The notes under the pieces: generated by a model
Databases searched by the model: none
Seen by the model: the letters and a program-made list of their open reading frames with translations, nothing else
What the model was told of the DNA's origin: nothing
Position numbers and translations under genes: made by a program
Shown: piece by piece, positions 14,408-33,895 of the stretch
Numbering within the stretch: the first letter of the stretch is position 1
Layout of the letters: each line of letters opens with the position of its first letter
From: Clostridia bacterium
GTDB lineage: Bacteria; Bacillota; Clostridia; Christensenellales; CAG-138
Reading direction: 5' to 3'
Assembly (NCBI GenBank): GCA_017514685.1
Contig: JAFWJN010000029.1
Span: 1 to 34,040 of the forward strand
DNA: 34,040 bases

Positions 14408-15043
14408 TCACGGATTCAGTTCTCTCATGACTCTTTCGAGAGCTTCCGAAAACTTTCCGATATGAATTCCATCAATGAATCTATGATTTACTTCCAGAGA
14501 AACGTGGAGAACCTTCCTGCCGTTTTCTTCCGTATACTTTCCCCACGCAATGCGCGGAATACTGTCATTGAGCGATTCCTCGTCTGAAAGATTCCGTTCG
14601 TTCGTCAATGCTGTCAGCTCTATCCATGGCAGACACGAATAATAAATCAAGGCATCCGTCTCTCTGGATAAATCGATAAACTCCGTCTGTGCTCTGCTTT
14701 GTTTGATCGCTTCTCTGCAGAAATCATCGATCACATCCATGTGATCCATTGTGACGATATGAAACTGCTCCTCTCCCGGATTCAGATCCGTAAAGCTTGG
14801 GTCCCTGCGGTCATACCGGATCAGCCTGCCGTTTTTGACTGCCATCAGAAAAGCTTCCGTCTGATTAAAAGCCTGAGTACATGCCCAGATCATACCGGCA
14901 TAAAAAGACAGTCCGTGCGCTTTTGTATAGCGATATAAATTGGTAACGTCTTCCCGGAATGTCACCATATAGAAAGGATTTGACATGGATGAGAAAAACT
15001 CATAAATGTCTTTTCTCTTCCACTCATCATAATTCAGTTCCAT
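14408..15043 (-). CDS. Chloramphenicol-acetyltransferase-like protein
   Basis: This 211-residue protein has the length and signatures of the CAT fold. The catalytic HxxxDG is NHRFIDGIHIGKF with His187 and Asp191, matching His195 and Asp199 of classical CAT, and SCLPW (136–140) matches the SxxP transition-state-stabilising motif. FTDLNP (84–89) is also typical. Known members acetylate chloramphenicol with acetyl-CoA, but distant chromosomal homologues often have other acceptors, so resistance cannot be claimed. The frame extends to a TTG at 15049, but GGAG at 15052–15055 is 8 bases from the ATG at 15043, which is chosen. That ATG is two bases from the stop of the preceding hydrolase. Confidence 0.85.
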   Translation of the reverse strand: MELNYDEWKRKDIYEFFSSMSNPFYMVTFREDVTNLYRYTKAHGLSFYAGMIWACTQAFNQTEAFLMAVKNGRLIRYDRRDPSFTDLNPGEEQFHIVTMDHMDVIDDFCREAIKQSRAQTEFIDLSRETDALIYYSCLPWIELTALTNERNLSDEESLNDSIPRIAWGKYTEENGRKVLHVSLEVNHRFIDGIHIGKFSEALERVMRELNP

Positions 15044-15045
15044 TT

Positions 15046-15654
15046 TCAATTCTCCAATCTGCTACTCTGAACCCATTCATCCAGAAAGCGCATTTGTTCT
15101 TCCGTATGAAACCAGTGTTCCCCGTCTTCCATCACAGTCAGTTCAGCGGAATGCATTTTAGAAAACGCAACCATCTGTTCATACGAGGTCAGAGAATCTT
15201 TGCTTCCATAAAGAACTTTGGTCGGAGCATTCCAGATAATCGGATTAGTTCTCGTATAATTCAGATAATCCCAGGAGAGTTCTTCACCGGAAGCGGTCCG
15301 GATCGTTTTCTTCTCTTTCAGTTCTGTTTCCGTAATGCCTTCCTGCTTCATCAAACTTTCGATCAGATTTTCCATATCCACAACCGGGGAGATGAAAAAA
15401 GCTTCCTGAATCAGAAGGTCGATTCCCGAACACATGCAGTAGTAAGCCCCTATGCTGTTTGCTATGATTGTGATTGTTTCTCCCTCTTCCTTCAAGCGAA
15501 TCACCTCTTCATGGATTTCTTTTCCGGTTTCCCACGGAAAACGTGCCTGATATTCAAGTCCGATCACTCTGCAATCCGGAAAAAGAGGTTTATAGTGCTC
15601 GCTTTCAGCAGGTGTACCGTATTTTCCATGAACATACAATACAATTTTTTTCAT
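15046..15654 (-). CDS. Small alpha/beta hydrolase
   Basis: The 202-residue protein begins with the hydrolase oxyanion loop HGKYGTP (9–15). It has a nucleophile elbow ANSIGA with Ser67, Asp153 in LYGSKDSLTS, and His180 in DGEHWFH, giving a full triad. There is no signal peptide, so it is cytoplasmic. The family covers esterases and thioesterases of unknown substrate. It starts 15 bases after a GNAT gene and ends two bases before the CAT-like gene, so the three are surely one transcript. The ribosome site is weak, consistent with coupling. Confidence 0.82.
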   Translation of the reverse strand: MKKIVLYVHGKYGTPAESEHYKPLFPDCRVIGLEYQARFPWETGKEIHEEVIRLKEEGETITIIANSIGAYYCMCSGIDLLIQEAFFISPVVDMENLIESLMKQEGITETELKEKKTIRTASGEELSWDYLNYTRTNPIIWNAPTKVLYGSKDSLTSYEQMVAFSKMHSAELTVMEDGEHWFHTEEQMRFLDEWVQSSRLEN

Positions 15655-15669
15655 GGCTCTGATTGTTTC

Positions 15670-16299
15670 CTATTCATCAAACAGCTGCCCCGGTAATTTT
15701 AGTTTCTCTTTCGGGGGAAACTGACTGTCAAACTCCTCAACCTCATCATTCTTCACATAATACCCCGCGGGAGTCTGATAAACTCCGGTTATACCGTTCA
15801 AGTATCCCGGTATCAATTCTCTGCAGAGAAAGAACGAAGCGTCCGCATCTTCGGGAAGATCATGATAGCGGATCCCGAAATTGCTGGAATAAGTAAAACC
15901 GCTTTTTCCGTAGAAACCGATATTGCCTTCGAACAGCACTGCGCCAAAGCCCATTTCTGTTGCTTTCATCAAAGAATAGTCAAGCAGCTTTTTGCCGTAG
16001 CCTTTCCGTTTAAGTTCCGGTGTAATGCAGATCGGTCCCATCGTCAGCACCGGTATCACTTCACCATTGTCTGCTTCGATCACCGTTTTCATAAACATAT
16101 TCTGCCCGATCAACGTTCCGTCCTTTTCCATGACAAAGTTCAGTTCCTTCACAAACGCAGGATCATTTCGAAGAACGTGAATGACATAATGCTCACTGCA
16201 TCCAGGACGATAAACATTCCAAAAAGATTCCCGGATCAGGTTTTCCACTTCACGCTGCTCATCAGCTCTTTCCAATCGTATCAAATAGTCTGTGTCCAT
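15670..16299 (-). CDS. GNAT family N-acetyltransferase
   Basis: The protein of about 209 residues has the acetyl-CoA binding core VLTMGPICITPELKRKGYGKKLLDYSL, with the RKGYGK pyrophosphate loop, followed by FEGNIGFYGKSGF, the usual GNAT end motif. The C-terminal extension GYLNGITGVYQTPAGYY resembles the YhbS-like predicted acetyltransferases. The acceptor is unknown. Two starts are possible. The ATG at 16317 overlaps the upstream stop in an ATGA junction but has no ribosome site. The ATG at 16299 has GAGGAAG directly before it and is used here. Confidence 0.82.
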   Translation of the reverse strand: MDTDYLIRLERADEQREVENLIRESFWNVYRPGCSEHYVIHVLRNDPAFVKELNFVMEKDGTLIGQNMFMKTVIEADNGEVIPVLTMGPICITPELKRKGYGKKLLDYSLMKATEMGFGAVLFEGNIGFYGKSGFTYSSNFGIRYHDLPEDADASFFLCRELIPGYLNGITGVYQTPAGYYVKNDEVEEFDSQFPPKEKLKLPGQLFDE

Positions 16300-16313
16300 T
16301 TTCTTCCTCTCTA

Positions 16314-16898
16314 TCATTTTTGTGTTGTATATTCTTTTAAGATATCCGGAAAAACGCCTTTCAGAAAATGCCGGTATTCCGGATGATTGTCTGCTGCCTC
16401 ATATTCTTTCCTGATGATCTTTATCAGCCAGTCTCTCATTTTATCGGGCATCTGTTCGTAGCGGACGATTTCAATCAATCCTTCCTTTTCTGCTGAAAGA
16501 ATCGCTTCAAAAGCATCCGAAACATACTCTGCACCAGTGACCTCAACGGGGAGTTCACTGACCGCAGCTTCCGGGATTTTTAGCTCATAATCCGTCTCCG
16601 TGATGCTTTCTGCACTGTAAATATATCCCGATACTCCCTTATATGTTCTTTCAAGAGCATCCCTGTAGTATTCCTCCAAACGGATTTTACCATCCGGATT
16701 AAATCCGTACGGTCCCCATTTCTGCCAGATACCATGATACTCAAATCCGGTTTCATTGCAATACTTCTCGACTGCGTTCGACAGATACACCAGTACGTTT
16801 TCTCTCTTTTTGGAAAAATAGACCAAAGACACTCCTTGATTTGAAATTCTTGGTTCCAGTGTTTGGATGCCGGCAACCGGCGATGCATGATAGTACAT
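16314..16898 (-). CDS. Conserved protein of unknown function
   Basis: This 194-residue soluble protein is not assigned to a named family here. It starts MYYHASPVAGIQTLEPRIS, has an SLVYFSKKRENVLVYLSNAV stretch, a WQKWGPYGF core, an acidic middle and a basic C-terminal helix. It has no signal peptide or membrane segment. The opening resembles proteins whose active site faces small nucleotide or aminoacyl substrates (HASP…I.L.P), but this is weak. The open frame extends upstream into the GNAT gene; the ATG at 16898 is chosen because GGAGG lies 4 bases before it. The stop overlaps the next gene's possible ATG. Confidence 0.75.
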   Translation of the reverse strand: MYYHASPVAGIQTLEPRISNQGVSLVYFSKKRENVLVYLSNAVEKYCNETGFEYHGIWQKWGPYGFNPDGKIRLEEYYRDALERTYKGVSGYIYSAESITETDYELKIPEAAVSELPVEVTGAEYVSDAFEAILSAEKEGLIEIVRYEQMPDKMRDWLIKIIRKEYEAADNHPEYRHFLKGVFPDILKEYTTQK

Positions 16899-16917
16899 AG
16901 ATCCTCCGGTGATGAAT

Positions 16918-17400
16918 TCAGCGGTTGAGCACCATTCGTATTTCTGAAGCCGGTCTTCCAAGCCGGATTTCTTTTTCCATACCGTCCCTGAAAAAACCGT
17001 TTTTCTCATAGAAGCGGATTGCCCGGGTATTGTCCTTCAACACCCATAACGCAATTTTCGGATAAATAAGATGTTTTAATCCCTCTTCCATCAGCATCCT
17101 GTCAATGCCCTTTCCATAATAATCTTTCAGTACATAGATTGAAATGATTTCTCCGGTGTCAGGTAAATCTTCCCCGCGATAAGTACCGTAGGCAATGAAG
17201 CCTACCACCTTTTCTCCATCCTTTGCTATCAGATTATTCTCAGGCCACTGAAAAGCGATCCTTTCACATTTTTCCAATGTCAATGCATTCAGATACTCCT
17301 GATCCAAAAGTCCGGAATAAGCCTCCTGCCATGATTGGTAATGAACAAATGCCCTGCCTCTGATTTCCGCTTCGGTCTCCATTTTTTTGATGATCAGCAC
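16918..17400 (-). CDS. GNAT family N-acetyltransferase
   Basis: The 160-residue protein is a compact single-domain GNAT. It shows EIISIYVLKDYYGKGIDRMLM with the YYGKGID acetyl-CoA loop, then LWVLKDNTRAIRFYEKNGF, the classical last strand–helix motif. The acceptor substrate is unknown; some relatives act on protein N-termini or small amines. Translation starts at GTG 17400 with GGGGTGA just upstream, an unusual but complementary ribosome site. It ends 19 bases before the unknown protein gene and probably shares its transcript. Confidence 0.85.
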   Translation of the reverse strand: MLIIKKMETEAEIRGRAFVHYQSWQEAYSGLLDQEYLNALTLEKCERIAFQWPENNLIAKDGEKVVGFIAYGTYRGEDLPDTGEIISIYVLKDYYGKGIDRMLMEEGLKHLIYPKIALWVLKDNTRAIRFYEKNGFFRDGMEKEIRLGRPASEIRMVLNR

Positions 17401-17457
17401 ATTCTGTCACCCCACTTTATAAATCGTTATTTCTGGACCGCAGAAATCAGCGCGCAC

Positions 17458-18264
17458 TTATTCATCCAGATAGCTGAAAACTCTGTCATAGAAATCATCC
17501 GCTTCTTCATATGTCGCATGGCCTAGCCCTTCATAGATGTACAACGTGCTTTTTCCGATAAGGTCATGCATCAAATATGACGCTTCAACTCCTACGATCT
17601 GATCGTCCGAGCCTCCGATAATCAGCGTAGGGCAAATGATTTGATTGATTTCATCCTTTGCATTAAAGGCAAGAATCGCTTCCGCATTAACAAGAAATCT
17701 CTCAAAACTTTTAGGCTTTCCGAAGATTCCGAGAATCGGCAGAATCGCGCGGTTTTTATGCAGATAAGATTCAGAATAGCTCTTTTCAGCAGTATCGGCC
17801 ATCAATTGTTTGTAATCATTCTCTTTTACGAGTTCTATCCAGTGACTGACCCGTTCTCTGACAATCACATTGGCTTCCGGCGCTGAAACTGCTAAAATCA
17901 TTTTTTCTACCAGTTCGGGATGATCGATTGCAAGATACTGCGCAATCATACCCCCTTCAGATACCCCCAGCACAGAAACTTTGGAAAGATTCAATTTGCG
18001 GATGGCTTCCGCCTGATCTTCTGCCATCTGACGAATGGAATATCCCGCATGCATTTGATTCTTTCGGCTGAACAAGTACACGGTGTACCGCTCAAAGAAC
18101 CTGCGGTACGGTGCCGCCAGGAGCAAAGCTTTTCCCTGAACCGTTGCCAATCCATCGGAAAGTCCCGGAAGTACGACAAGGATTCTTTTGCCATGTCCGA
18201 TTGCCGCATAGTACATTTCCGTCTCTTTCAGTGATACATGTCCGTTTCTTGCATTTCTGGTCAT
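17458..18264 (-). CDS. Alpha/beta hydrolase
   Basis: This 268-residue cytoplasmic hydrolase carries a nucleophile elbow LGVSEGGMIA with Ser102, the acid Asp220/221 in IGGSDDQIVG and His249 in EGLGHATYEE. PGLSDG (33–38) forms the oxyanion-hole loop. The general layout is that of lactonase, esterase or carbon–carbon-bond hydrolases; the substrate is not inferable. GGGAG lies upstream of the ATG. It is one of two unrelated alpha/beta hydrolases in the accessory run. Confidence 0.85.
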   Translation of the reverse strand: MTRNARNGHVSLKETEMYYAAIGHGKRILVVLPGLSDGLATVQGKALLLAAPYRRFFERYTVYLFSRKNQMHAGYSIRQMAEDQAEAIRKLNLSKVSVLGVSEGGMIAQYLAIDHPELVEKMILAVSAPEANVIVRERVSHWIELVKENDYKQLMADTAEKSYSESYLHKNRAILPILGIFGKPKSFERFLVNAEAILAFNAKDEINQIICPTLIIGGSDDQIVGVEASYLMHDLIGKSTLYIYEGLGHATYEEADDFYDRVFSYLDE

Positions 18265-18325
18265 AGTTTATTCTCCCTTTGCCCGTTATGACATTCGTCC
18301 CGATTATCAGACGGTAGTGACCCCA

Positions 18326-18820
18326 TCAAAATCCGGATACCCATTGATCCGCTTCCGATCGCGTCTGAAAGATAATTTTTTGCTTTGCCGGATACTTTTC
18401 CATCAGCAATAACAGAACCGGACGGTCAGCGGTTCGATAATTCTGAACCATCTGCACCAATTCCGGATCCAGCGTTTTCTCCGTCCATGGAATATCTTCC
18501 CGCTTTGTGCCGACTCTGTCAATGATCCCTTTCATGCAGGTCTCCTCGCTGAAATCCAGGAAAATAATGGTATCACATGCCTGAATTCTCATCTCATAGG
18601 TTCTGCTGTAATTGCCATCTATAATCCATTTGGGTTCAGACAGAATGGTCCTCAGCTTATCATCAAATTCATCTCTGGAGATATGCGTTCTGTCCGCTTT
18701 CCACCAGATATTATCCAAATGAATCAGGGGAAGCCCCGTTTTCTTCTGCAGTTTTCGGGAAAAGACGCTTTTTCCGCTTCCCGAGCAGCCAAGTACTATG
18801 ATTTTATTTCCAACAGACAT
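18326..18820 (-). CDS. P-loop nucleoside/adenylate kinase-like protein (FlaR-like)
   Basis: This 164-residue protein has the Walker A loop GCSGSGKS near the N-terminus, the HLDNIWWKAD motif and WIIDGNYSRTYEMRI. That combination marks the AAA_17 'topology modulation protein'/FlaR-like family of small kinases. It probably phosphorylates a small molecule with ATP; the substrate is unknown. The start ATG at 18820 shares one base with the stop of the upstream SDR gene (TGATG), so translation is coupled. The WW and DGN motifs are intact, with no sign of decay. Confidence 0.82.
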   Translation of the reverse strand: MSVGNKIIVLGCSGSGKSVFSRKLQKKTGLPLIHLDNIWWKADRTHISRDEFDDKLRTILSEPKWIIDGNYSRTYEMRIQACDTIIFLDFSEETCMKGIIDRVGTKREDIPWTEKTLDPELVQMVQNYRTADRPVLLLLMEKYPAKQKIIFQTRSEADQWVSGF

Positions 18821-19671
18821 CAAAGATCATCCTTTTTATGCAAGCATTTACCGTTTTCGGCAGATTTCCGGCTGGCAGGATTTTCCAGGATTTTTCTGAT
18901 CACCCAGAACCTTATTGTTACCGGTAAGCAGTCGAACAGGATCAAGAGCGGATTTCTGTTAATTGAATAAGCGAAAGCCGGGATTCGTGAGCATGTGATT
19001 TTGTATACCTTTTCGGCGATTCTGTCCGGTGATATTTTTCTTGCTTCCACTTTATCTACAATATTCCTGAACCGTTTCGCATTATATTGATACTGTTTGG
19101 TCTTTTCACAGAACGAATCAAGCTGATCGGTGGACTGCCCCAGCATACCGGTATCGACAGCACCGGCCCGAAGCACAGACACATAGATATCTGAGAGCTG
19201 AAGTTCCATTTTCAAGGAATACGCGTATCGGTCCAAAGCAGCTTTGGTGATCGCATATACCCCTGTGAAGGGAAGCGGATCCCGCACTGCCAGTTCACTG
19301 GTTATCATCATAATACGGGCACCTTTCGTCAAAAACGGCCGGAACAATCTGTTCACAAGGAATGCTCCGCCAAGGTTGACTCTGAAAATTTTCTCCATCT
19401 CGGACGGAGTTATCTCGATTAGCGAATTCAGCAGATAAATTCCCGCAAGATGAAGGATCGCATAAAGTTCCTTGGTTAAACAGCCAACCCGATTCACCGC
19501 ATCAATCAAACTCTTCTCATCTGTCACATCAGCCTGAATGGGTACGATATTCTCACCTTCTGCAGGCAAATCTCTGTCCAGCGCAAATACGCGATAACCG
19601 TTTTTTGCAAATAATCCGGTTACCGCTTTTCCCATTCCTCCGTTTGCGCCTGTTACTAAAATTGATTTCAT
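18820..19671 (-). CDS. Short-chain dehydrogenase/reductase
   Basis: The 283-residue NAD(P)-dependent SDR has the cofactor loop TGANGGMG (7–14), the structural LHLAG near 74–78 and the catalytic set Ser125, Tyr139 and Lys143 (YAITK). The core is of normal length, and a C-terminal tail from about residue 225 adds a hydrophobic stretch (PLLILFDCLPVTIRFWVI) that may associate with the membrane or a partner. The charged last twenty residues are lysine-rich. The substrate is unknown. It ends in a one-base overlap with the kinase-like gene. Confidence 0.87.
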   Translation of the reverse strand: MKSILVTGANGGMGKAVTGLFAKNGYRVFALDRDLPAEGENIVPIQADVTDEKSLIDAVNRVGCLTKELYAILHLAGIYLLNSLIEITPSEMEKIFRVNLGGAFLVNRLFRPFLTKGARIMMITSELAVRDPLPFTGVYAITKAALDRYAYSLKMELQLSDIYVSVLRAGAVDTGMLGQSTDQLDSFCEKTKQYQYNAKRFRNIVDKVEARKISPDRIAEKVYKITCSRIPAFAYSINRNPLLILFDCLPVTIRFWVIRKILENPASRKSAENGKCLHKKDDL

Positions 19672-19720
19672 GATTGCTTTTTCCGGTGCTCCCGCATCCC
19701 GGACATCTCCTGATATTTTT

Positions 19721-20326
19721 CTACTTTTTTATCGCCGTTTTCAGTGGTGAAACCGTAAACAGCCCATGGCGGTTGCAGTATGCATAAATCTGTTTCACCC
19801 GGTTCATTTTAAATCTTGCATCGGCATTTCCTTCCGGATACAGTTTCACGAACTGCATCCCCTGGTCTGACACCGCTGTGAGAAATGAGATGTAATGATC
19901 TTTCGTCATCGGATGATCGACCGATACGTAGTACTCATCTTCTGCAACGCTGATACAGATGAGGTGATCCTGATCCGCTGTTTCTGCTTCTATCGACGGG
20001 AGAATGATTCCGCAGCAACTGATCACAGCTTCTCCTGTTGCGCGGATCACATTCCCACAAACCGGACAGACATAAATCTTTCCCTTCATCATGTTGAATG
20101 CCCGGTTCTGATTCTTTACATCTTCACCGGAAAGCAATTCTATCACTGAGATATCCAGCACTTTTGCCAGCGGTTCCAGTAAACTGATATCGGGGAATCC
20201 CTGTCCTGTCTCCCACTTGCTGACTGCTTTGCTGCTGACAAATATCTTCTCTGCCAGCTCTTCCTGCGTCATTTTCTTACTCTCCCGAAGCTTGCGGATC
20301 ACTGCTCCTGTCACATATCTATCCAT
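19721..20326 (-). CDS. HTH regulator fused to a desulfoferrodoxin-like domain
   Basis: The 201-residue protein joins a Cro/C1 helix-turn-helix (about 8–62, MTQEELAEKIFVSSKAVSKW) to a desulfoferrodoxin-like domain (about 83–195). The iron-sulfur-free Fe(Cys)4 site is complete: C87, C90, C104 and C105. Of the superoxide-reductase iron ligands, H138 and H144 (VDHPMTKDHYI), C184 and H187 (YCNRHG) are visible, but the first histidine is absent: the equivalent HVPVIE stretch reads ILPSIE. It may therefore sense redox or iron rather than reduce superoxide. AAGGAGGT lies upstream of the ATG, and an inverted repeat in the promoter region could be its operator. SDR and kinase-like genes follow. Confidence 0.85.
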   Translation of the reverse strand: MDRYVTGAVIRKLRESKKMTQEELAEKIFVSSKAVSKWETGQGFPDISLLEPLAKVLDISVIELLSGEDVKNQNRAFNMMKGKIYVCPVCGNVIRATGEAVISCCGIILPSIEAETADQDHLICISVAEDEYYVSVDHPMTKDHYISFLTAVSDQGMQFVKLYPEGNADARFKMNRVKQIYAYCNRHGLFTVSPLKTAIKK

Positions 20327-20375
20327 ATTTTATGTACCTCCTTTTTCTTCATCCTATCATTCCTGTGCTTTGGAG

Positions 20376-20393
20376 ACTACCTACGGATAGTAG
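20376..20393. promoter_or_regulatory. Inverted repeat upstream of the HTH–desulfoferrodoxin gene
   Basis: CTAC (20377–20380) and GTAG (20390–20393) bracket a CTACGGATA core containing a second CTAC. The repeat lies about 50 bases before the regulator's start, where a self-binding site would be expected. The -10/-35 boxes around it are weak. Confidence 0.3.
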
Positions 20394-20458
20394 AGTGAAA
20401 AAGTTCGCAGCCGCCCTTTACCGGGTTTTAAGCAACCACTTCTGATTCTTATCGGTTT

Positions 20459-21208
20459 CTAATCTTTTACAGACCGAGTCGCCACATAGGATGGAATGCC
20501 AAGTTCGTACAATCTTCCCGCATTATTTGTGTCCTCGTAGATATCCAGTAATCTGAAGCCGGCTTCCAGCTGACCGCCGATCTGTTCCTCCAGAGTATGA
20601 GAGAACTGAATCCCTGCGTCAACCTCCATCAGCTGTTTTCTTTGTTCCGGATTCTTCAGGGGATTGAACGGTAAAGAGTTGACGATCATCTTCTCATCAT
20701 TGTCAACAATGTAATCGATAAAAAGGCTGGCGCCGGAGATCAGATAACCTCCCTTTTTCAGCACCCTGAAACATTCTCTGAAAATCGGTTTGACCTCTTC
20801 CACGTAACAATTGGACACCGGGTGAAAAATGATATCAAATTCTTCGTTCTCGAAGGGAAGCGGCTTTGTCATATCCCCCCGGATGATTCTTATCTGATAT
20901 CCTTCCCGTTCGGCGACTATCTTCTCATTTTCGAGCTGTTTTTCAGAATAATCGAGCACGGTGCAGTCAGCGCCAAGCGCAGCAAACACCGGCATCTGCT
21001 GTCCGCCTCCGCTTGCAAGGCCCAGGAGCTTCTTTCCGTACAAATTTCCAAGCCATTCATGAGGTACCGGTTTGACAGGTGTAAGAAGCACATTCCATTC
21101 CCCGCTTAAAACTTTGACGAATGTATCATGGGAAACAGGTTTTCCCCACTCCCATCCTGCGCTTACCCATGCGTCGATTGTCTTTGCATTGATTTCCTGA
21201 TAATCCAT
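20459..21208 (-). CDS. Class I SAM-dependent methyltransferase
   Basis: This 249-residue methyltransferase has motif I LLGLASGGGQQMPVFAALG (61–79) with the acidic post-I VLDYS (84–88), motif II/III around FDIIFHPVSNCYVEEV and LKKGGYLI. It is of the UbiE/Methyltransf_11 type acting on small molecules; the acceptor is unknown. The frame opens with ATGATG at 21235, but that lacks a ribosome site. The ATG at 21208, with GAGAG 7 bases upstream, gives MDYQEINAKTIDAWV, the usual start of this group. It lies 53 bases after the TfoX-like gene. Confidence 0.87.
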   Translation of the reverse strand: MDYQEINAKTIDAWVSAGWEWGKPVSHDTFVKVLSGEWNVLLTPVKPVPHEWLGNLYGKKLLGLASGGGQQMPVFAALGADCTVLDYSEKQLENEKIVAEREGYQIRIIRGDMTKPLPFENEEFDIIFHPVSNCYVEEVKPIFRECFRVLKKGGYLISGASLFIDYIVDNDEKMIVNSLPFNPLKNPEQRKQLMEVDAGIQFSHTLEEQIGGQLEAGFRLLDIYEDTNNAGRLYELGIPSYVATRSVKD

Positions 21209-21261
21209 TTCTTTTCTCTCAGCTTTCAGCATCATCTGTACTTGGAGTTGATAGGTGTATC

Positions 21262-21573
21262 TTATCTTTTCTTCTGTAACGGCAGCTCGGCATACATGGC
21301 TTCGAACAGATCTTTCAGAAAAGTTCTGTTTTCCACATTGTCAACGAGTATCATCTCTTTTGCGCCCTCATACGGTGATTCCCTGTCTGCATCCGGCATC
21401 AGAGCCAGAGCAGATTCCGTCTGCTTCACAAGAAACCGATCATCATAGATCCCACCGACTATTTTTCCCCGGTAGTAAATGATGTACTCTCCCATCATAG
21501 GACGATACGAGATCTCATCCAAATCAGAAAGCTGTTCCATTATATAATGCAAATACTCTTTGCCGGACGCCAT
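21262..21573 (-). CDS. TfoX/Sxy N-terminal-domain family protein
   Basis: The 103-residue protein matches the TfoX N-terminal domain: YRPMMGEYIIYYRGKIVGGIYDDRFLVK is the hallmark block. In gammaproteobacteria Sxy/TfoX promotes competence gene expression, but single-domain Bacillota homologues have no established function, so no competence role is claimed. The frame starts earlier at 21597, but the ATG at 21573 follows GGGGA with 8-base spacing and fits the family start MASxKEYL. Confidence 0.85.
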   Translation of the reverse strand: MASGKEYLHYIMEQLSDLDEISYRPMMGEYIIYYRGKIVGGIYDDRFLVKQTESALALMPDADRESPYEGAKEMILVDNVENRTFLKDLFEAMYAELPLQKKR

Positions 21574-21627
21574 AAATTGTTCCCCTTTTTCCGTCATTTC
21601 AACTCTGCTGTTGTTCTTTCTGGAGAT

Positions 21628-22659
21628 TCAGTTCTGAAACCTTATTACCTGTTTTTCCGTGTCCACAGTAGCCTGAACTCCGAACGGAATGATGCAGCGC
21701 GGTTTCGCATGACCAATATTTATATTATAAACAATCGGAAGTCCAGAGTTACCGACCTCTTCCAGCAGTATCTGCTTATATTCCTGCATATATACTTCAT
21801 CCATCGGTTTTCCGACGAGCATCCCTGAAATCACATCAAAAATACCGGTGTCCTTTAATGTTTTCACTGCTATCCTATATTTTGAGGGCGGCATTTTCTC
21901 TTCGCTTGATTCCAGCAAAAGAATCTTTCCATTCCAGTCTTCTTTTTCCGGAAAAAGGCCGTATTTTTTGCAAAGAACAGGCATGTCCGCATATCTGTCT
22001 CCATGGAAGAAATCAAAAAGAGAATCAATGCAGCCGCCAAGTATTTTACCTGAAAAGACAGGGCTGCCCTGAAGCAGTTCAAAGCCGCTGTTCCGATGTG
22101 AAGTTACCGGTTTCCCGATCTGATCCACTCCGAAATGCTCTCTTTCTTCATACCAGACATCACTTGGCCTGACTTCCCGGATGTTTCCGTTTCTGATCAG
22201 CTCTGAAAAATACCTCTCCGTATAGGGAAGCATCTGCCGATCCAGTTCACAGATATCCGCAAGGAATGACTGACCGTAAAACGAATTGATTCCTACTTTA
22301 TGCAGCATGAAATGATTGATGGTTGTATCGGAAAAACCAAGAAAAACTTTATCCGATACAGCATTCTGAAGCTCATTCCGATCAAATAGATAAGGTAGCA
22401 AGCGGTAAGTATCGTCTCCGCCAATTGCACAGAGGATCATGTCGATTTCCGGATCACTGAAAGCCTGCAGCAAATCGGCTGCTCTTTGATCCGGATGGTT
22501 TTTTACGTATTCCATTCCTTTCAGTGCATGCGGCATAAAACGTACGTTCAGTCCGTAGTCTTTCAACCGGTTTATTCCGATTTCAACCTCATGCCTGACA
22601 AAATCTTCACCTATCACTCCGCTTGATAAGCTCACAATAGCAATATTTTTAATCTTCAT
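21628..22659 (-). CDS. S66 family serine carboxypeptidase (LD-carboxypeptidase/MccF-like)
   Basis: The 343-residue cytoplasmic enzyme belongs to peptidase family S66. The expected catalytic residues are Ser110 in FLGFSDTT, Glu250 in LLLESSEE and His317 in NIGHAKPRCIIPFG. IGGDDTYRLLPYL and KILGGCIDSL are the flanking motifs, and the length and middle region look more like MccF than LdcA. MccF-type enzymes cleave the amide bond of peptidyl-nucleotide antibiotics such as microcin C, while LdcA trims tetrapeptides in peptidoglycan recycling. The open frame extends upstream over the preceding gene, but the ATG at 22659 has GGGGA before it and opens with the first strand of the fold. Confidence 0.88.
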   Translation of the reverse strand: MKIKNIAIVSLSSGVIGEDFVRHEVEIGINRLKDYGLNVRFMPHALKGMEYVKNHPDQRAADLLQAFSDPEIDMILCAIGGDDTYRLLPYLFDRNELQNAVSDKVFLGFSDTTINHFMLHKVGINSFYGQSFLADICELDRQMLPYTERYFSELIRNGNIREVRPSDVWYEEREHFGVDQIGKPVTSHRNSGFELLQGSPVFSGKILGGCIDSLFDFFHGDRYADMPVLCKKYGLFPEKEDWNGKILLLESSEEKMPPSKYRIAVKTLKDTGIFDVISGMLVGKPMDEVYMQEYKQILLEEVGNSGLPIVYNINIGHAKPRCIIPFGVQATVDTEKQVIRFQN

Positions 22660-22751
22660 CTGCTTTTTCCCCAGCAACCAGCTTATGTAGTTGATATCCT
22701 CCAAATTCAGGAAACAATAAGAAATTGGAAAACGCTCCTGCGCTTCAGGTA

Positions 22752-23090
22752 TCAGCCTCTCCGTTCTGCGCTTAGCGGCTCGTCCCAAAGAACACAAGCT
22801 CCGTTTTTGCTGCAAACGGCATCAATTGTTTCCTGCAGGTGTTCCAGAAAAGCTTCCTCTTTTTTCTTTGATCTTCTGCCTTTTCCACTGTACAACTCCT
22901 CTTCGAAATATGCATCATAGGAAACTGCAAAATCCTCTTCGTTCACATGCGGGAAGAAAGACACCGCGGCTGTATATCTGATGAAACCCGCTTCCGAATC
23001 ACTTGTCAGGACAACCAGTGCACCATTACGCTGAACTCCTGAGAAAACAGCGTTTGCCTTATAGTAACGTTCGTAAACATTAATTACCAT
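22752..23090 (-). CDS. Conserved protein of unknown function
   Basis: This 112-residue protein was not recognised. It begins MVINVYERYYKANAVFSGV, has a beta-rich middle (GALVVLTSDSEAGFIRYTAA), the distinctive VSFFPHVNEEDFAVSYDAYF stretch and a basic GKGRRSKKKEEAFLEHL segment that may be a helix. No signal peptide or membrane segment is seen. GGAGG before the ATG at 23090 makes this the start. It is the first gene behind a promoter at 23171–23198 and lies 92 bases before the S66 peptidase gene. Confidence 0.75.
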   Translation of the reverse strand: MVINVYERYYKANAVFSGVQRNGALVVLTSDSEAGFIRYTAAVSFFPHVNEEDFAVSYDAYFEEELYSGKGRRSKKKEEAFLEHLQETIDAVCSKNGACVLWDEPLSAERRG

Positions 23091-23170
23091 AACAACCTCC
23101 AGGTAATGATTTTCACATCTCAATATTGACAGTAGCTTCAGCAGCCGGAACTCTCTTGCTGATTTTTCGA

Positions 23171-23198
23171 ATCTTATTTGCTATAACCAGTTTATCAA
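23171..23198 (-). promoter_or_regulatory. Promoter at the head of the 23-kb gene run
   Basis: TTGATA (23198–23193) and TAAGAT (23176–23171) are separated by 16 bases on the minus strand. The -35 box overlaps the T-tract of the terminator-like hairpin just upstream, so one transcript could stop where the next starts. Confidence 0.5.
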
Positions 23199-23245
23199 AA
23201 AAGCTCTTTCCGTTCAACAATCAGTTTCTAACAGATAACGGAAAG
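23196..23245 (-). terminator. Terminator-like hairpin with long loop
   Basis: CTTTCCGTT (23206–23214 on plus) and AACGGAAAG (23237–23245) form a 9-bp inverted repeat with a 22-base loop, followed leftward by a run of six T. The long loop makes it less certain than the others. Confidence 0.45.
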
Positions 23246-23413
23246 GAATGACCCCCCTCCGGGTAATCGTTGGGCAGGCGATTGTTCGAAATGGCAGAGA
23301 TCAACTGTGGCAGCTGGTTAATCGGAGTAAATTATCATCTTACGCTTATAAGCCGTTCCAATCGGTCACATCATTTATTTGCGTTTTATCATGCTTGCAA
23401 GCAAAGACGCCAA
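23246..23413. other. Intergenic stretch without a recognisable gene
   Basis: Between two terminator-like hairpins there is no reading frame with a ribosome site or family motif on either strand. Composition is ordinary and no tRNA cloverleaf is seen. It may be a gene relic. Confidence 0.5.
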
Positions 23414-23414
23414 C

Positions 23415-23447
23415 AAAAAAAGCGAACCGATATAATTACGATTCGCT
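23415..23447 (-). terminator. Intrinsic terminator of the SPL-like radical SAM gene
   Basis: AGCGAA (23421–23426) and TTCGCT (23442–23447), with an inner CG pair, form the stem. Reading leftward a run of seven T follows. It lies 57 bases after the radical SAM stop codon. Confidence 0.7.
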
Positions 23448-23503
23448 ACTCACCGCAAGGAACATTTAAAAGAAGCGTAGTACAGTTTACCAGAAGCCGC
23501 AAA

Positions 23504-24382
23504 TCAAAAATCAAAGATGCTCATCTGTGAAACCTTCTCTGGAAATTCAAACATATAACGGAAACAGTCTTCCGGGCTTGACAAGATACCATTCGCCTTA
23601 CATATTCTTTGAAATAACTCCATTAATTTCCCGGCATTCGGGCTTGCTAATTCATATGAATTTCCATATCGTTTGATATATTCTTTTTTCAATCCGGGAA
23701 AATAATTGTCAAGTGCCGCGTAAAAGTATTCCCTGTCTCCATCTCTCAACGTCAATCCCATGCCAAAATCAATAACCCCCTTTACTCCGACACGAACACA
23801 TTCGTTCAATATGGTTCTGATATTATCCTCTGTATCATTGATATAAGGAAGAATCGGTGTCAACCATACAATCGTCGGAATTCCTCTTTTCTGCATTTCT
23901 TCAAGCACTTCTATACGACGCTTTGTATTGCAAACATTTGGCTCCAATATACGGCATAGGTTGTCATCATAGGTCGTAAGTGTTATTTCTACGACACATT
24001 TTGCGGAATGGTTGATCTCATCCAAAAGATCAATATCCTGAAGAATTCTGTCAGATTTTGTCTGTATCGCAATGCCAAAGCCATTCTGCAGAATAACTTT
24101 CAAGCACTTTCTCGTTAATCGCAGCTTTTCTTCACAGTGCATATACGGGTCTGACATTGATCCGGTTCCGATCATACATTTTTTTCTTTTTGATTTCAGT
24201 GCTCTGTCCAGCAATTCCGGTGCATTCTGCTTCACTTCTATATCTTCAAAAGGATGGGTAAACTGGTAGCATGTACTTCTGCTGTCGCAATAAATACAGC
24301 CGTGGCTGCATCCACGGTAAATATTCATTCCATAGTGTCCGCTGCTGCCGGTCAATATTCCTTTCGTTTCAACAAAATGCAT
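23504..24382 (-). CDS. SPL-family radical SAM protein
   Basis: The 292-residue protein carries the radical SAM cluster motif NIYRGCSHGCIYCDSRS, with C25, C29 and C32 binding a 4Fe-4S cluster that cleaves SAM. The surrounding sequence matches the SplB-like / Rv2578c-type group (GMNxYRGCxHGCxYCD; GTGSMSDPYMHCE; EITLTTYDD). Spore photoproduct lyase, the best-known relative, repairs UV thymine dimers, but this shorter group has no settled reaction. The C-terminus QMSIFDF fits the QxxLF-type sliding-clamp binding motif and would suit a DNA-acting enzyme. The ribosome site is AAGGAC before the ATG. It lies 27 bases after an APH-type kinase gene and is followed by a terminator. Confidence 0.85.
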   Translation of the reverse strand: MHFVETKGILTGSSGHYGMNIYRGCSHGCIYCDSRSTCYQFTHPFEDIEVKQNAPELLDRALKSKRKKCMIGTGSMSDPYMHCEEKLRLTRKCLKVILQNGFGIAIQTKSDRILQDIDLLDEINHSAKCVVEITLTTYDDNLCRILEPNVCNTKRRIEVLEEMQKRGIPTIVWLTPILPYINDTEDNIRTILNECVRVGVKGVIDFGMGLTLRDGDREYFYAALDNYFPGLKKEYIKRYGNSYELASPNAGKLMELFQRICKANGILSSPEDCFRYMFEFPEKVSQMSIFDF

Positions 24383-24409
24383 CTTATCACTGTCCTTTTT
24401 CTTGCAGTT

Positions 24410-25276
24410 TTAAATTGACCGGTACCATATCGGAACAGGTTCTGTCATGTCATGATACCAGACCAGTACTTCTTCCGCTTGGTTCATCATCGTATTCACT
24501 TCAGCCTCTCCGTAAGGAATCGCCCAATACACCGATGAAAGTGTGTTGCTCGATATATATAAAGCAAGAAGCTTCCAGAAATCAAATGGAACATTGCCAT
24601 CGAAATAGCCGTCCACCATTCCAGACGCAAAAAGGGATGATTTCTGGGCACACCAGACTATTCTGTTGAACTCTTCCCATGGATCTCCGAAATCGTTGCG
24701 ATTAAAATCGATGATATAAAGCTTTCCGCTATGGTCGATCATCATGTTCCCGATATGATAGTCCCCGTGCTGATAAACCTGAGGTCTACCATCCAGCAAA
24801 TAGCGATTCTCGTTAATATAGTCGATGAAAGCCTGCCCCTTTGGATATTTGATTGGACAATCATTATATCTCCTGATTTTAGTATCCATTTTTCGATTGA
24901 ATCTGACCGCCCAGTCTTCCTGTGATTCTGAAGCCGGGATGGAATGGATTCTGCTTAGAATCTTCCCTGCCTCAAGTCCATAGCTGTATTGTTCTCTATC
25001 CGACAGCAGCGGTATCAGAGTTTCCGCTGCTTCTCCGTCGATCCAACTCTGGATAGAGTAAACGCCTTCCTCGCAAATACCGAGTTCGATTGGCAGGCAC
25101 ATGGGTGTTCCAAGAGAAGCAACACGCTGCATCATCCTAAATTCAGAATGTTTAGCAGCATACTGTGAAATGTCGGAAATGCGTAAAAGAAACCGGGTGC
25201 CTGTTTCATCCGTTATACAATATTTTTTATCCTCAGACCATCCTTTAAGAATTGGCTCTTTGCTTATGATGTTCAA
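24410..25276 (-). CDS. Aminoglycoside-phosphotransferase-family kinase
   Basis: The 288-residue protein has the APH/choline kinase fold. Catalytic loop QHGDYHIGNMMID (169–181) with Asp172 and Asn177, and metal-binding IIDFNRNDFGDPWEEF (188–203) with Asp190, are both intact. The family phosphorylates aminoglycosides, macrolides, sugars or other small alcohols; the acceptor cannot be assigned and resistance is not implied. Translation begins at TTG 25276, five bases after GGAGG. An ATG in between is out of frame and meets a stop at once. The Walker-like first part is short, as in antibiotic-type members. Confidence 0.85.
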   Translation of the reverse strand: MNIISKEPILKGWSEDKKYCITDETGTRFLLRISDISQYAAKHSEFRMMQRVASLGTPMCLPIELGICEEGVYSIQSWIDGEAAETLIPLLSDREQYSYGLEAGKILSRIHSIPASESQEDWAVRFNRKMDTKIRRYNDCPIKYPKGQAFIDYINENRYLLDGRPQVYQHGDYHIGNMMIDHSGKLYIIDFNRNDFGDPWEEFNRIVWCAQKSSLFASGMVDGYFDGNVPFDFWKLLALYISSNTLSSVYWAIPYGEAEVNTMMNQAEEVLVWYHDMTEPVPIWYRSI

Positions 25277-30707: not shown

Positions 30708-30860
30708 TCATTTTATTGTTTCCAGATTGTCCGCAGCTTTCGGCTCATACGGAACCGAGATGAAATCCTTCTTTTGGTGGTACAAGCAACATACCGTCTC
30801 GTCGGTCAGATGCTCTTCCATATAATCGATTGCTGTACGAATACTGGTAAGCCACTCCAT
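30708..30860 (-). pseudogene. Truncated AraC-family regulator remnant (50 codons)
   Basis: A 50-residue frame starts at ATG 30860, eight bases after GGAGG. Its first 20 residues (MEWLTSIRTAIDYMEEHL…) match the opening helix of AraC/Rob-type regulators that carry a GyrI-like effector domain. A CCLYHQ stretch recalls the ACCSxYHFQ recognition part after a deletion. Then the match ends and a stop follows. The DNA-binding and effector parts are missing, so it is probably inactive as a regulator. Translation signals remain intact. Confidence 0.55.
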
Positions 30861-30947
30861 CGGCGGATCCTCCGTTCCTTGATGGAATCATTGTATCTCT
30901 CAAAACGAAAATTGTCCTGTCATTTCCTGCCCGGATCTGTCCTGCCG

Positions 30948-31580
30948 CTATCCCTTTCGGATCGGGTGCCGAATCACAGTTTTCAGCTTTTCCAGCGCCA
31001 CTTTTCTTGCGTCGCTCAGGTAGATCTCATGGTGCATTCTCTGCCTTGTTATGTCCAGAACACATCCCTGGCTCTCCATGTACTCATGCATCCGGGCAAT
31101 CGTAGCGGGTTCATCATCATAGGCACCTACATGCAGACATTGAACGCACAGCCCCTCATCATAGGTCAGGAACTCTGCCTTCGAGAAGTCTGTCTTCTTT
31201 TTTCTTGTCGCTTCCTCGACGGCCCACGCAAAATCATCTGCGGTCACGAAATCGGGCAGACGAATCACGGAGATCCACTGAAAGGCGTCTTTATGCGCAT
31301 AGTCAATGCCCTGAACACCGTCCTGCCACCAGAAGCCTTCCAGCGGAGGAACGACGTAATCGAAATAGCCCTCGATGCGATGATCTCCCATCTTGCTCAT
31401 TTTGATGGTAAATGCGATGCCGTACAGCAGAGCGATGGACCGCTTGTACTCGCCATCCTCCTGATTGGGGTCGCCCTGTCCCCGGACGGCGATATAATTC
31501 ATGGACGGCACGGTTACGATGCCGGGTTTATTCTTCGGCATGTAGAATTCTTTGTATTCCTTTTTGAAATCAAAAGCCAT
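30948..31580 (-). CDS. Stand-alone GyrI-like domain protein
   Basis: The 210-residue protein matches the GyrI-like small-molecule-binding superfamily: MAFDFKKEYKEFYMPKNKPG, IVTVPSMNYIAVRGQGDPN and HEYMESQGC/HEIYLSDARK are typical of the stand-alone, longer group. Relatives bind or hydrolyse hydrophobic, often toxic compounds; some cleave cyclopropanoid genotoxins. The start at 31580 is chosen because a G-rich ribosome site (GGGGGG) lies just before it. The region is visibly richer in G+C than genes to the left, as is the next gene. It lies 87 bases before the truncated AraC frame. Confidence 0.85.
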   Translation of the reverse strand: MAFDFKKEYKEFYMPKNKPGIVTVPSMNYIAVRGQGDPNQEDGEYKRSIALLYGIAFTIKMSKMGDHRIEGYFDYVVPPLEGFWWQDGVQGIDYAHKDAFQWISVIRLPDFVTADDFAWAVEEATRKKKTDFSKAEFLTYDEGLCVQCLHVGAYDDEPATIARMHEYMESQGCVLDITRQRMHHEIYLSDARKVALEKLKTVIRHPIRKG

Positions 31581-31667
31581 TGCTTCGCCCCCCAAAGTTT
31601 ATTCTTTCCTTTTACATGGCATGGATTCCATTTACAGAATCCCAAAAGGAAGACCGGACCGAGCCCT

Positions 31668-33032
31668 TTATGCCTTCCGGTAAAACGAGTAATGCTGCGT
31701 CTTTTCAAAGCCGAGCTTTTCATAAAACGGGAGATCGGAGATCACGTAGGCTTGCTTTGCGCCTAAAGCTTTTGCGCGTGAAAAAGCTTCCGAAAGGAGC
31801 GCGGCGGCAATGCCTTTCCCGCGATAGTCAGGGATCGTACAGACCGGCTCCACATAGACGTAGTCCGTATCCGGATGAAACCAGAGGGAGCAGTGCGATA
31901 CCGGCTCTCCGGAAAAATCCGTGGCGGAAAGGCATAGGGTTTTGTTGAAATGCCTTCGGACATGCGGAACATGATCCAGCGAGCGTTCAAACGCTTCCCA
32001 GTCATCCCCGTGATCAAATCCCTGCCAGAACAGCCACTCAAGAGCATCCCGATCCGCGATCTGATCCATTTCCCGAAGCTGCAGTCCCTCGGGAAGCTTT
32101 GATGAGAAATCTCTGTCAAAGGAGAGCTCCATGATCGTTTCTTTCTGATCGATCCGCTCGAATCCGGCCAGCTCAGCGGCTCTTATTTCTGCGGTGTTTT
32201 CTGTATTGATCGCGACAGCCAGTCCGGAATCGTCCTTCAGCTCCCGGCAGGCGTAGTCCAGAATTTCCGGGTACAGCGCCTCATACTCCGGCAGAGCGCC
32301 GCAGAAGGCTTCTCCGAAATACATATCATAGATCGCAGCGCCGACGACTATGCCATCCGACCACCAGAGCCCGATGGAGGAGCTGGCGCTTTTGTCAAAC
32401 TCCGGGTGCTCCATCATCCACTCAAAGCGGGCCCAGTTCCAGTTGATATGCGTTCTGTCCTTCCGATTCAATTCGATGAGGAAATTGCAAACCGCCTCAT
32501 AATCCTCGTCCCTGTAGCTGCGGAGGCTCACCTTGAGCTGCCAATACTGAATGCCCCAGTACTCAAAGTCCCACTGCTCGCTGTAGTCGTTGCACTCATA
32601 ATCCACGTACCAGAGCAGTCCGTCCTGCACAACAAAATTGGTGGGATAATAGTCAACGTTGATCCCGGCGGCCATAGCCTTTGCCGCCATATCCCGCACC
32701 TGGGGCAGATACGGCTCGACCGATACGCCGGAGCGTACCAGTTCCATCACGGTCGGCCCCTCGATATAGTCCTTGACGATTCGCTCGGCGTCCCTGTCAA
32801 CGGCATGCATCCTGGGAATGCGGATGCCGGCGTTTTGCAGCCGCTCATAGTCCCGCAGCTCGGCCTCGATCTTGTTGCCGAAGGCATAATAATCGCAGGG
32901 CTCGTGATGGATCTGCTTGATCACCGCTTGCTGTCCATCCCGTTCTGCGAGATAAGAATATCCGCCCTTGCCTTTTCCCAGCATGCGAACAATCCGGTAT
33001 GCTGTTTCGTTGACCGTAAGACTTCCGTTCAT
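31668..33032 (-). CDS. Kinase-like domain fused to tandem GNAT acetyltransferase domains
   Basis: This 454-residue protein is a fusion. Residues 1–165 form a kinase-like domain: glycine-rich LGKGKGGYSYLA (18–29), Lys39 in VIKQI, IVKDYIEGPT (85–94), catalytic loop NVDYYPTNFVV (125–135) with Asp127 and Asn132, and WYVDYE with Asp144 as metal ligand. From residue 167 (LKVSLRSYRDEDYEAVCNFL) two GNAT domains follow, about 167–305 and 317–454. The second has the acetyl-CoA loop PDYRGKGIAAAL and closes with FYEKLGF. There is no linker at the junction, only three residues. The kinase fold usually stands alone. The ATG at 33032 has AAGGA before it; three upstream in-frame Met codons lack ribosome sites. 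G+C is high. Confidence 0.85.
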   Translation of the reverse strand: MNGSLTVNETAYRIVRMLGKGKGGYSYLAERDGQQAVIKQIHHEPCDYYAFGNKIEAELRDYERLQNAGIRIPRMHAVDRDAERIVKDYIEGPTVMELVRSGVSVEPYLPQVRDMAAKAMAAGINVDYYPTNFVVQDGLLWYVDYECNDYSEQWDFEYWGIQYWQLKVSLRSYRDEDYEAVCNFLIELNRKDRTHINWNWARFEWMMEHPEFDKSASSSIGLWWSDGIVVGAAIYDMYFGEAFCGALPEYEALYPEILDYACRELKDDSGLAVAINTENTAEIRAAELAGFERIDQKETIMELSFDRDFSSKLPEGLQLREMDQIADRDALEWLFWQGFDHGDDWEAFERSLDHVPHVRRHFNKTLCLSATDFSGEPVSHCSLWFHPDTDYVYVEPVCTIPDYRGKGIAAALLSEAFSRAKALGAKQAYVISDLPFYEKLGFEKTQHYSFYRKA

Positions 33033-33049
33033 AATCATATCCTTCATTT

Positions 33050-33237
33050 TGCCCGTCTGCCGCATCGATCGGGCAGTCCAGCGTAAAGCGCGACCCTTCC
33101 TCTCCGAAGGTCCCGATGGGGCGAAAGCCACATTTTTCGAGGACTATCTGAGACGCGGCGTTTCCGGCGTCCGTTTCCGCTTCCAGTGACCTTACATCCG
33201 GGTGCAGAAAAGCCCATCGGCAGGCCGCCTCATATAA
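33050..33237 (-). pseudogene. 5'-truncated GNAT remnant
   Basis: In a different frame from the fusion gene, the minus strand encodes a GNAT C-terminal end: AACRWAFLHPDVRSLEAE, TDAGNAASQIVLEKCGF and RPIGTFGEEGSRF. A stop closes the frame upstream at about 33237 and there is no start codon, so the N-terminal half and acetyl-CoA loop are missing. The frame runs on into the start of the fusion gene without an early stop. Confidence 0.7.
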
Positions 33238-33247
33238 TTATGATAAT

Positions 33248-33276
33248 ATTATACCATACAAGGTGGAATAAGACAA
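33248..33276 (-). promoter_or_regulatory. Promoter upstream of the GNAT remnant and fusion gene
   Basis: TTGTCT (33276–33271) and TATAAT (33253–33248) are 17 bases apart on the minus strand, with a TG extension before the -10 box. The transcript would begin near 33241 and have a leader of about 210 nt made largely of the GNAT remnant. Confidence 0.65.
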
Positions 33277-33344: not shown

Positions 33345-33815
33345 TCACTCCACTGGAAAAAACAATTTGTTCTGCCCGGTTGCCGGTTCTGTAAAATCAC
33401 ATACCGCACCTGCAAGCTTCATCCCAAGTTCTGGTATAAGGCTCTTAATCACGTAATCAAATATCTTGCCATAGTTTTCCGGCTGAACCTCTGTCACAAG
33501 ATATTTTCTGGCTGGCCTAACCCACTTTACCCATCCATCCGGAATCGGCGCATCCTCATATACTTCAACGCCTGCCAAATACAAGCCCCTGGAGAAACCG
33601 TCCGTCCACGGCATAAAAGACAGCGTTTCATCGCTCATGGCTCCCCAAAAACCAACAAAAGAACCATCAGCGTTTTTCATTCCAAGATCCTCAATATCAC
33701 TGAAATTGGAATTGGCTTGATGCCACAAATCATGCACTACATTCTTTTCTTTCGTGCATAAGCCTTCCTTGCCAATAATAGCTATTATTGGCAAGTCAAT
33801 AATCTCGTATTTCAC
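33345..33815 (-). CDS. GyrI-like effector-binding domain protein
   Basis: The 156-residue protein matches the effector-binding (AraC E-bind/GyrI-like) domain in stand-alone form. It has the opening YEIIDLPIIAIIGKEG, an FVGFWGAMSDE stretch, LYLAGVEV, IPDGWVKWVRPARKYLVTEV and the end CDFTEPATGQNKLFFPVE. Such proteins bind small molecules, and stand-alone versions often act in drug or toxin tolerance. Translation starts at GTG 33815, seven bases after GGAGG. It differs from the GyrI-like gene at 30948, which is longer and of another subgroup. The next gene upstream, partly outside the window, is a histidine phosphatase. Confidence 0.85.
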   Translation of the reverse strand: MKYEIIDLPIIAIIGKEGLCTKEKNVVHDLWHQANSNFSDIEDLGMKNADGSFVGFWGAMSDETLSFMPWTDGFSRGLYLAGVEVYEDAPIPDGWVKWVRPARKYLVTEVQPENYGKIFDYVIKSLIPELGMKLAGAVCDFTEPATGQNKLFFPVE

Positions 33816-33895
33816 CTTTTCTCCTCCTGCATAATTCAGTTCTTGTCCCCACAAATGGGAATTTATCGTACAAATGACATGTCACTGATTCGCTT

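Follow-up and report, generated by a model that had tools for sequence, protein, structure and literature searches.

Does a kinase-like domain that shares its chain with acetyltransferase domains form with them one enzyme with two modifying heads, or are the parts mere neighbours that came to lie in one frame? The question is raised by a gene on contig JAFWJN010000029.1 of a Clostridia bacterium (assembly GCA_017514685.1), of which positions 1 to 34,040, the whole stretch analysed, are called the window below. The answer favored here, with a probability of roughly 0.45, is that the gene encodes in one chain a likely two-headed enzyme that would phosphorylate and N-acetylate small molecules, probably antimicrobials or amino-sugar-like compounds. 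The gene and its kinase-like (KIN) and tandem GNAT (GN2) parts are the following:

31668..33032, minus strand: fused gene, kinase-like domain plus predicted tandem GNAT; one open frame, 454 amino acids and a stop.
32538..33032, minus strand: kinase-like domain, residues 1-165; ATP-site residues G19/G21/K22, K39, D127, N132 and D144.
32118..32534, minus strand: first GNAT fold (predicted), residues 167-305; from the sequence and a tandem-GNAT alignment over 166-454.
31671..32117, minus strand: second GNAT, residues 306-454, acetyl-CoA loop intact; Pfam PF00583 at 49.7 bits against a cut-off of 20.7, and fold.
31806..31823, minus strand: RGKGIA acetyl-CoA pyrophosphate loop, residues 404-409; conserved residues.

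An earlier note on this DNA had described a single-chain fusion of kinase and GNAT domains with a near-absent linker, and both points hold. The frame runs unbroken from the ATG at 33032 to 31668 (a longer, GTG-initiated frame begins at 33131), the kinase ends at residue 165 and the GNAT part begins at 167, the listed tandem-GNAT alignments starting at 164-175, mostly at 165-171. The full-length search (1339 matches among 7997 candidates, best 120 taken) yielded relatives of the whole protein at 54-90% identity among the matches listed. The extrapolated domain ends are separated by 0 or -1 residue in 98 of the 101 kinase-first rows, query included, and by 10-15 residues in the other three (P0090, P0094, P0095). 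Since the same in-frame junction recurs in 30 of the best 80 named-genome loci, from many assemblies, a frameshift or assembly artefact is very unlikely and was rejected. An internal restart for the GNAT part was rejected as well: codon 169 is a GTG in the window gene, whereas relatives have V, A, M or other residues at this position. No paper on a KIN-GN2 fusion was found in a literature search of open-licence PMC papers.

The ATP-site signatures that the earlier note had read in the kinase half are all present. The Gly loop reads G19-x-G21-K-G-G-Y-S, and of the 224 kinase domains aligned from fused and free proteins, K39 and D144 are each kept in 223, D127 and N132 each in 221. The domain belongs to a large mini-kinase family, 7985 of 8000 candidates scored being matches (best 120 taken). 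Folded alone without an alignment, it gave a predicted local distance difference test score of 38, and this model was not used; among the chains compared, its predicted fold is closest to Rio1, with little C-lobe. It differs from RIO1 and Bud32 in missing the family cut-offs tried (Pfam RIO1 gathering score, 13.4 bits against 22; NCBIfam Bud32 equivalog, 28.1 bits against 125) and in its own two near-invariant blocks, HHEPC (42-46) and Y-x-D-Y-E-C-N (142-148). According to an excerpt of PMC2564912, RIO1 carries the signature LVHADLSEYN and the loop STGKEA, and RIO2 the loop GxGKES; both RIO1 motifs are absent here, where INVDYYPTNF and GKGKGGYS are found, and only GxGK is common with RIO2. The aminoglycoside phosphotransferase domain PF01636 gave no match to the window kinase at E 1 and matched one of 39 relatives at E 0.14; as far as tabulated, none of these 39 mini-kinase members reaches a Pfam cut-off, the best E being 0.012.

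The GNAT half is better anchored in known families. Two GNATs had been claimed, the second with a complete RGKGIA loop, and this is borne out: R404-G-K-G-I-A409 is present (R404 is kept in 100%, G405 in 96% and G407 in 97% of 146 rows), and a first GNAT fold is predicted ahead of it. The first GNAT lacks the R-x-x-G-x-G/A acetyl-CoA loop, the position reading LPEYEALYPEIL, and the single-sequence Pfam scan at cut-offs detects the second GNAT alone. The half thus combines a predicted tandem of GNAT folds with an intact pyrophosphate loop (R404-G-K-G407) in the presumably active GNAT, as do tandem GNAT acetyltransferases. The GNAT search gave 1034 matches among 2176 candidates, of which the best 120 were taken. 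Near folds are MAB_4324, mycothiol synthase (MshD) and a glucosamine N-acetyltransferase, and also N-myristoyltransferase. The paired GNAT folds are shared with MAB_4324c, MshD and the C. acetobutylicum glucosamine N-acetyltransferase, whereas sequence identity to these is only 13-16% and the window protein has a kinase domain in front. A further difference from MshD lies in the first GNAT, since MshD keeps the acetyl-CoA loop in both of its GNATs, as stated in an excerpt of PMC4964394.

In mycothiol synthase, the same excerpt reports, the amine to be acetylated is held between the two GNAT folds and the second GNAT acts on it. By analogy, the first GNAT of the window protein would shape the acceptor pocket and the second would do the chemistry on an amine held between the two, an MshD/MAB_4324-like arrangement that is so far predicted. 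The mini-kinase would phosphorylate the same or a related small molecule, and both sites might act on one molecule with a result that protects the cell. This bifunctional idea is plausible. The earlier note had compared it to the bifunctional aminoglycoside enzymes, with other folds. Aminoglycoside phosphotransferases have a kinase-like fold. In AAC(6')-Ie-APH(2'')-Ia, a GNAT is joined to an aminoglycoside phosphotransferase (PMC4964394, in excerpt), so the contrast of folds is inexact, while the differences of family, order and doubled GNAT stand. Both proteins unite a GNAT part and a phosphotransferase part in one chain; unlike AAC(6')-Ie-APH(2'')-Ia, the window protein places the kinase first, as a 165-residue domain that is not an APH by Pfam, and its GNAT is a predicted tandem. 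The only AAC model among 18 listed for the GNAT part, NCBIfam AAC(6')-If, scored 13.2 bits against a cut-off of 300. On the best reading, the window protein would be a distant analogue of AAC(6')-APH(2''), built from different families and with the order of its parts reversed.

How the two parts are combined elsewhere was followed in 296 distinct proteins from the full-length, kinase and GNAT searches, classified by local BLAST and biased toward the queries. They comprise 114 KIN, 76 KIN-GN2, 52 GN2, 14 GN2-KIN and 10 HYD-KIN-GN2 proteins, together with 6 incomplete KIN-GN2, 4 RIMJ-GN2, 4 CPT-GN2, 2 NUDIX-KIN-GN2 and 14 others. HYD denotes the hydrolase-like family of window gene 15049-15654 (Pfam UPF0227, 23.1 bits against 21), and RIMJ a RimJ-type GNAT (PF13302 in P0050), the name RimJ being the one we presume for this family. 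The KIN class holds chains that end a few residues into the GNAT (P0125, P0133, P0134), and some of its members are therefore broken or contig-end pieces. The 14 GN2-KIN proteins (P0083-P0089, P0091-P0093, P0096, P0097, P0099 and P0119) have the tandem GNAT before the kinase and so share the AAC-APH order, which the window protein itself does not. The triple HYD-KIN-GN2 fusions, of about 650 amino acids, include P0026, P0055, P0064 and 7 others.

Universal occurrence of the fusion in its family, which the earlier note had set against its idea, was not seen. Of 201 genomes scanned, two carry it, the window's own and G046, from another genus (89% identity), and the same two are 2 of 396 genomes of the order. 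Sixteen of the 201 genomes have a strong match to GN2 (E below 1e-100) as a separate gene and 29 have one to the kinase, 18 of the latter being without a strong GN2 match, some in incomplete assemblies. Both separate matches occur in 11 genomes, of which 7 have them on one contig, and in 6 of these they share a strand and are no more than 7.5 kb apart; most of these genomes are of one genus, so this vicinity may be one inherited arrangement. In genomes of the window's own genus the parts, where present, are separate genes. Where GN2 is a separate gene (16 genomes), it directly adjoins HYD in 9. By contrast, all 14 same-genus genomes that contain both GN2 and the GNAT family of window gene 15673-16317 carry them on different contigs; not every window gene thus belongs to a common set, and a wider conserved array was rejected. 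In G034:C38, G054:C2 and G071:C17, a diverged GN2-like match (28-29%) was noticed 0.9-1.3 kb downstream of a free kinase, on the same strand.

Named genomes gave at least 594 stretches, of which the best 80 were kept, so that locus counts favor close relatives; some loci are the same contigs as in the genome scan. Thirty are kinase-first fusions, 6 are adjacent but unfused, kinase first and less than 100 nt apart, 3 are adjacent with GN2 first, 5 have the parts farther apart on the same strand, 1 has them on opposite strands and 35 have GN2 alone. The claim that the halves were formerly separate neighbours thereby gains support, from the 6 adjacent unfused loci and from the 11 genomes with separate halves. 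In L070 and L074, two of the 30 fusions, the matches are 33 nt apart, which corresponds to about 11 linker residues. All 30 are metagenome-assembled genomes (MAGs) or uncultured assemblies and none is a cultured isolate; they span several families, with one Coriobacteriaceae MAG (L084). In the isolate Butyrivibrio sp. CB08 (L090), the two genes are separated by 54 nt, with an intervening stop. Many record titles of the loci name ruminant gut samples. Carriage of the fusion on plasmids or phages was not found, one plasmid and three phage records matching with the kinase part only; among viral contigs, searched for close relatives, there was one match, again to the kinase part and not to the fusion.

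Several observations weigh against a two-headed modifying enzyme. The kinase half falls short of every curated family cut-off tried, Pfam's included, and its catalytic loop carries Asn where kinases carry His. A sequence-profile comparison of 28 rows places the Ser/Thr kinase 4eqm (E 1.8e-5) and Bud32 (E 8e-4) nearest to it among solved chains and contains no RIO chain, and Rio1 accounts for 2 of the 50 fold-match rows shown, a listing filled by the GNAT part. The predicted structure has a predicted template modelling score of 0.71, with the mutual placement of the halves uncertain. RIO1 is mainly an ATPase (PMC9138534, in excerpt), and hence the kinase domain need not phosphorylate a small molecule. 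For the acetyltransferase, an excerpt of PMC10727445, citing another paper, relates that MAB_4324c mildly acetylates amikacin in vitro and that its deletion left amikacin sensitivity unchanged. Evidence against an obligate partnership comes from relatives in which the GNAT pair retains only a short kinase stub (e.g., P0079, P0106, P0253 and P0259) and from others in which it is chained to hydrolase-like, RimJ-type, CPT-like or NUDIX domains. As the GNAT part is also joined to such unrelated partners, fusion may follow neighbourhood as much as function.

This last point leads to a competing explanation that is a serious, though less probable, contender: deletions among small modifying enzymes would join neighbours in frame, the halves keeping separate jobs and the fusion being near neutral. 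The variety of partners chained to the double GNAT, the kinase among them, the occurrence of the same families side by side and unfused, the short in-frame kinase and RimJ remnants that persist in some relatives, and the genes cut at the ends of the fragment described below are all as it would predict. However, no combination in the query-biased sample is commoner than kinase with GN2 (76, 14 and 10 of 296 in the three arrangements), both orders exist, the ATP residues are kept, and not all neighbours travel along, the 15673-16317 family being the example. It is rather improbable that the kinase domain controls the acetyltransferase as a regulatory switch, through ATP binding or autophosphorylation, and is not a second modifying head. 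Rio1 is among the fold matches, RIO1 is chiefly an ATPase according to the PMC9138534 excerpt, and 165 residues would leave little C-lobe for a protein-substrate platform; yet free kinases of the same family are common, as the 29 genomes attest, and a linker-free fusion in either order suits a switch less well. RIO and RimJ-like enzymes have cellular protein or ribosomal targets, and action of the kinase and GNATs on such a target is the least probable of the explanations weighed. The Rio1 fold match and the RimJ-type GNAT gene as a frequent upstream neighbour speak for it. Against it stand near folds such as MshD and glucosamine N-acetyltransferase, whose known substrates are small molecules (N-myristoyltransferase and others act on proteins), the location of the gene on a fragment that was likely transferred, and the absence of the fusion from 199 of 201 genomes.

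If both heads of the proposed two-headed enzyme act on one molecule, it would be a second solution to the AAC-APH design, reached by little-studied bacteria with different protein families. Were a substrate identified by way of the fusion, many genes of the large mini-kinase family could be annotated, and the unfused, fused and reversed pairs are natural controls for the effect of fusion. A broader and more speculative idea is that of a plug-in acetyltransferase: bacteria, many of the ruminant gut, may time and again fuse a single tandem GNAT in frame, as the first or the last part of the chain, with mini-kinases or with hydrolase-like, CPT-like, RimJ and NUDIX domains, the shuffled multi-headed enzymes modifying one small molecule stepwise.

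The joining itself was traced with trees made after the architecture labels had been assigned. The GN2 tree contains 49 rows hand-picked from a 146-row quick tree (one further pick is missing from the set), and the approximately unbiased (AU) tests came after the quick GN2 tree. A single clade of kinase-first fusions is rejected both on the GN2 tree (p 3.6e-5), where a single clade of all fusions is rejected too, and on the 87-row kinase tree (p 0.019), for which the bootstrap was still unsettled. Free GN2 and free kinase rows fall within fused clades, and loss of a half also breaks a clade, so the one-clade rejection alone is no proof of several joinings. In the kinase tree the reversed fusions group as a single clade (100/90) with a free kinase as neighbour (98/88), and the NUDIX-bearing pair stands beside another free kinase (88/92, not starred); in the GN2 tree the reversed row P0119, on a long branch, lies apart from the other reversed rows. 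The reversed order requires its own rearrangement and the linker-bearing form stands beside a different free kinase, from which we read at least three joinings of the kinase and GN2 families. The fusion had been called recent, and this part of the claim finds no support: kinase-first fusions span the 54-90% identity range and occur in MAGs of several families and in the Coriobacteriaceae MAG.

Pairwise Nei-Gojobori (NG86) ratios of nonsynonymous to synonymous substitution (dN/dS) were taken for the window gene against 18 fused loci out of the 30. They are low throughout, at 0.06-0.22 for the kinase (computable for 17 loci), 0.10-0.27 for GNAT1 (17) and 0.10-0.22 for GNAT2 (15), with several dS values exceeding 1 and rough, and they too speak against a sequencing slip. 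Over codons of about 270-390, nucleotide identity drops to 41-65% in 6 of these 18 (L062, L063, L064, L066, L068 and L084). The sharpest case is L062, with 88-93% over codons 150-270, then 47-60%, then 74-83%; in L063 identity falls from 91% to 73% and then to 42-54%. This pattern looks like recombination within the GNAT part. To note, the mosaic consists of a diverged central segment between better-conserved ends, and might swap the acceptor pocket.

The fused gene lies on a fragment with the following features, the last just outside it:

30799..33230, no strand: likely transferred fragment, 2.4 kb; from match edges against other genomes and guanine-plus-cytosine (GC) content.
33078..33230, ends approximate, minus strand: 3' remnant of a RimJ-type GNAT gene, 5' part missing; full-length copies in relatives.
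30948..31580, minus strand: GyrI-like small-molecule-binding protein, intact gene downstream of the fusion; PF06445 at 67.2 bits.
30799..30860, cut at 30799, minus strand: 5' remnant of an AraC-type regulator gene, its first 62 nt; whole copy in L051.
33248..33276, minus strand: promoter-like site TTGTCT-17-TATAAT; consensus match only, 10 of 12.

The GC content of the fragment is 0.533, against a mean of 0.450 (sd 0.020, maximum 0.486) across 284 equally long, overlapping segments at lower coordinates. Its edges were drawn by blastn against 19 loci: nine match up to 33228-33230 (L051, L052, L056, L062, L063, L064, L067, L084 and L088), six match down to 30799-30801 (L051, L054, L062, L063, L069 and L087), and no match among the 19 runs past either edge. 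None of the 19 matches the whole of 30799-33230 unbroken, the longest match, 30799-32979 in L054, being ended by its contig end. L051, L062 and L069 are without the GyrI-like gene. A full-length RimJ-type gene precedes the kinase by 44-54 nt in L056, L067 and L084, and the whole AraC-type gene (L051, 7483-8376) encodes HTH_18/HTH_AraC and GyrI-like domains. Identity to G046 is 89% for the fusion protein against 70% for the one other gene compared, 8110-9282, whose product we take to be phosphopentomutase-like. The foreign GC (53% against 45%) together with genes cut at both ends points to arrival of the fusion by transfer, which is the likely explanation of 30799-33230. Four promoter-like sites were found against 1.5 expected in shuffles.

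An anti-phage defence role for the fusion was rejected on its weak kinase matches to PD-T4-6 models alone (best 20.2 bits), the GNAT part having none. Mini-kinase relatives of 41-54% identity were seen in the human-gut phage records MT836927, MT835772 and MT836457, and one of 72% identity on a viral contig (L131). Elsewhere in the window, CAT-, APH-, S66-peptidase- and GNAT-type genes occur at 14408-25276 among many small same-strand genes, a set that fits chemical defence and proves nothing about the fused gene. An integron-type cassette array was rejected, a repeat search of 9000-34040 giving only short two- or three-copy matches and no array, with no dedicated attC search made; the stretch 30780-30970 folds no better than shuffles (z -0.71). 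A 156-nt piece common to several loci includes the 5' end of the AraC-type gene. Finally, the GyrI-like proteins of window 33348-33854 and of L051:7483-8376 also match Cass2, an integron-associated effector-binding family, the former at 25.9 bits, short of the cut-off of 27, and the latter at 64.1 bits.
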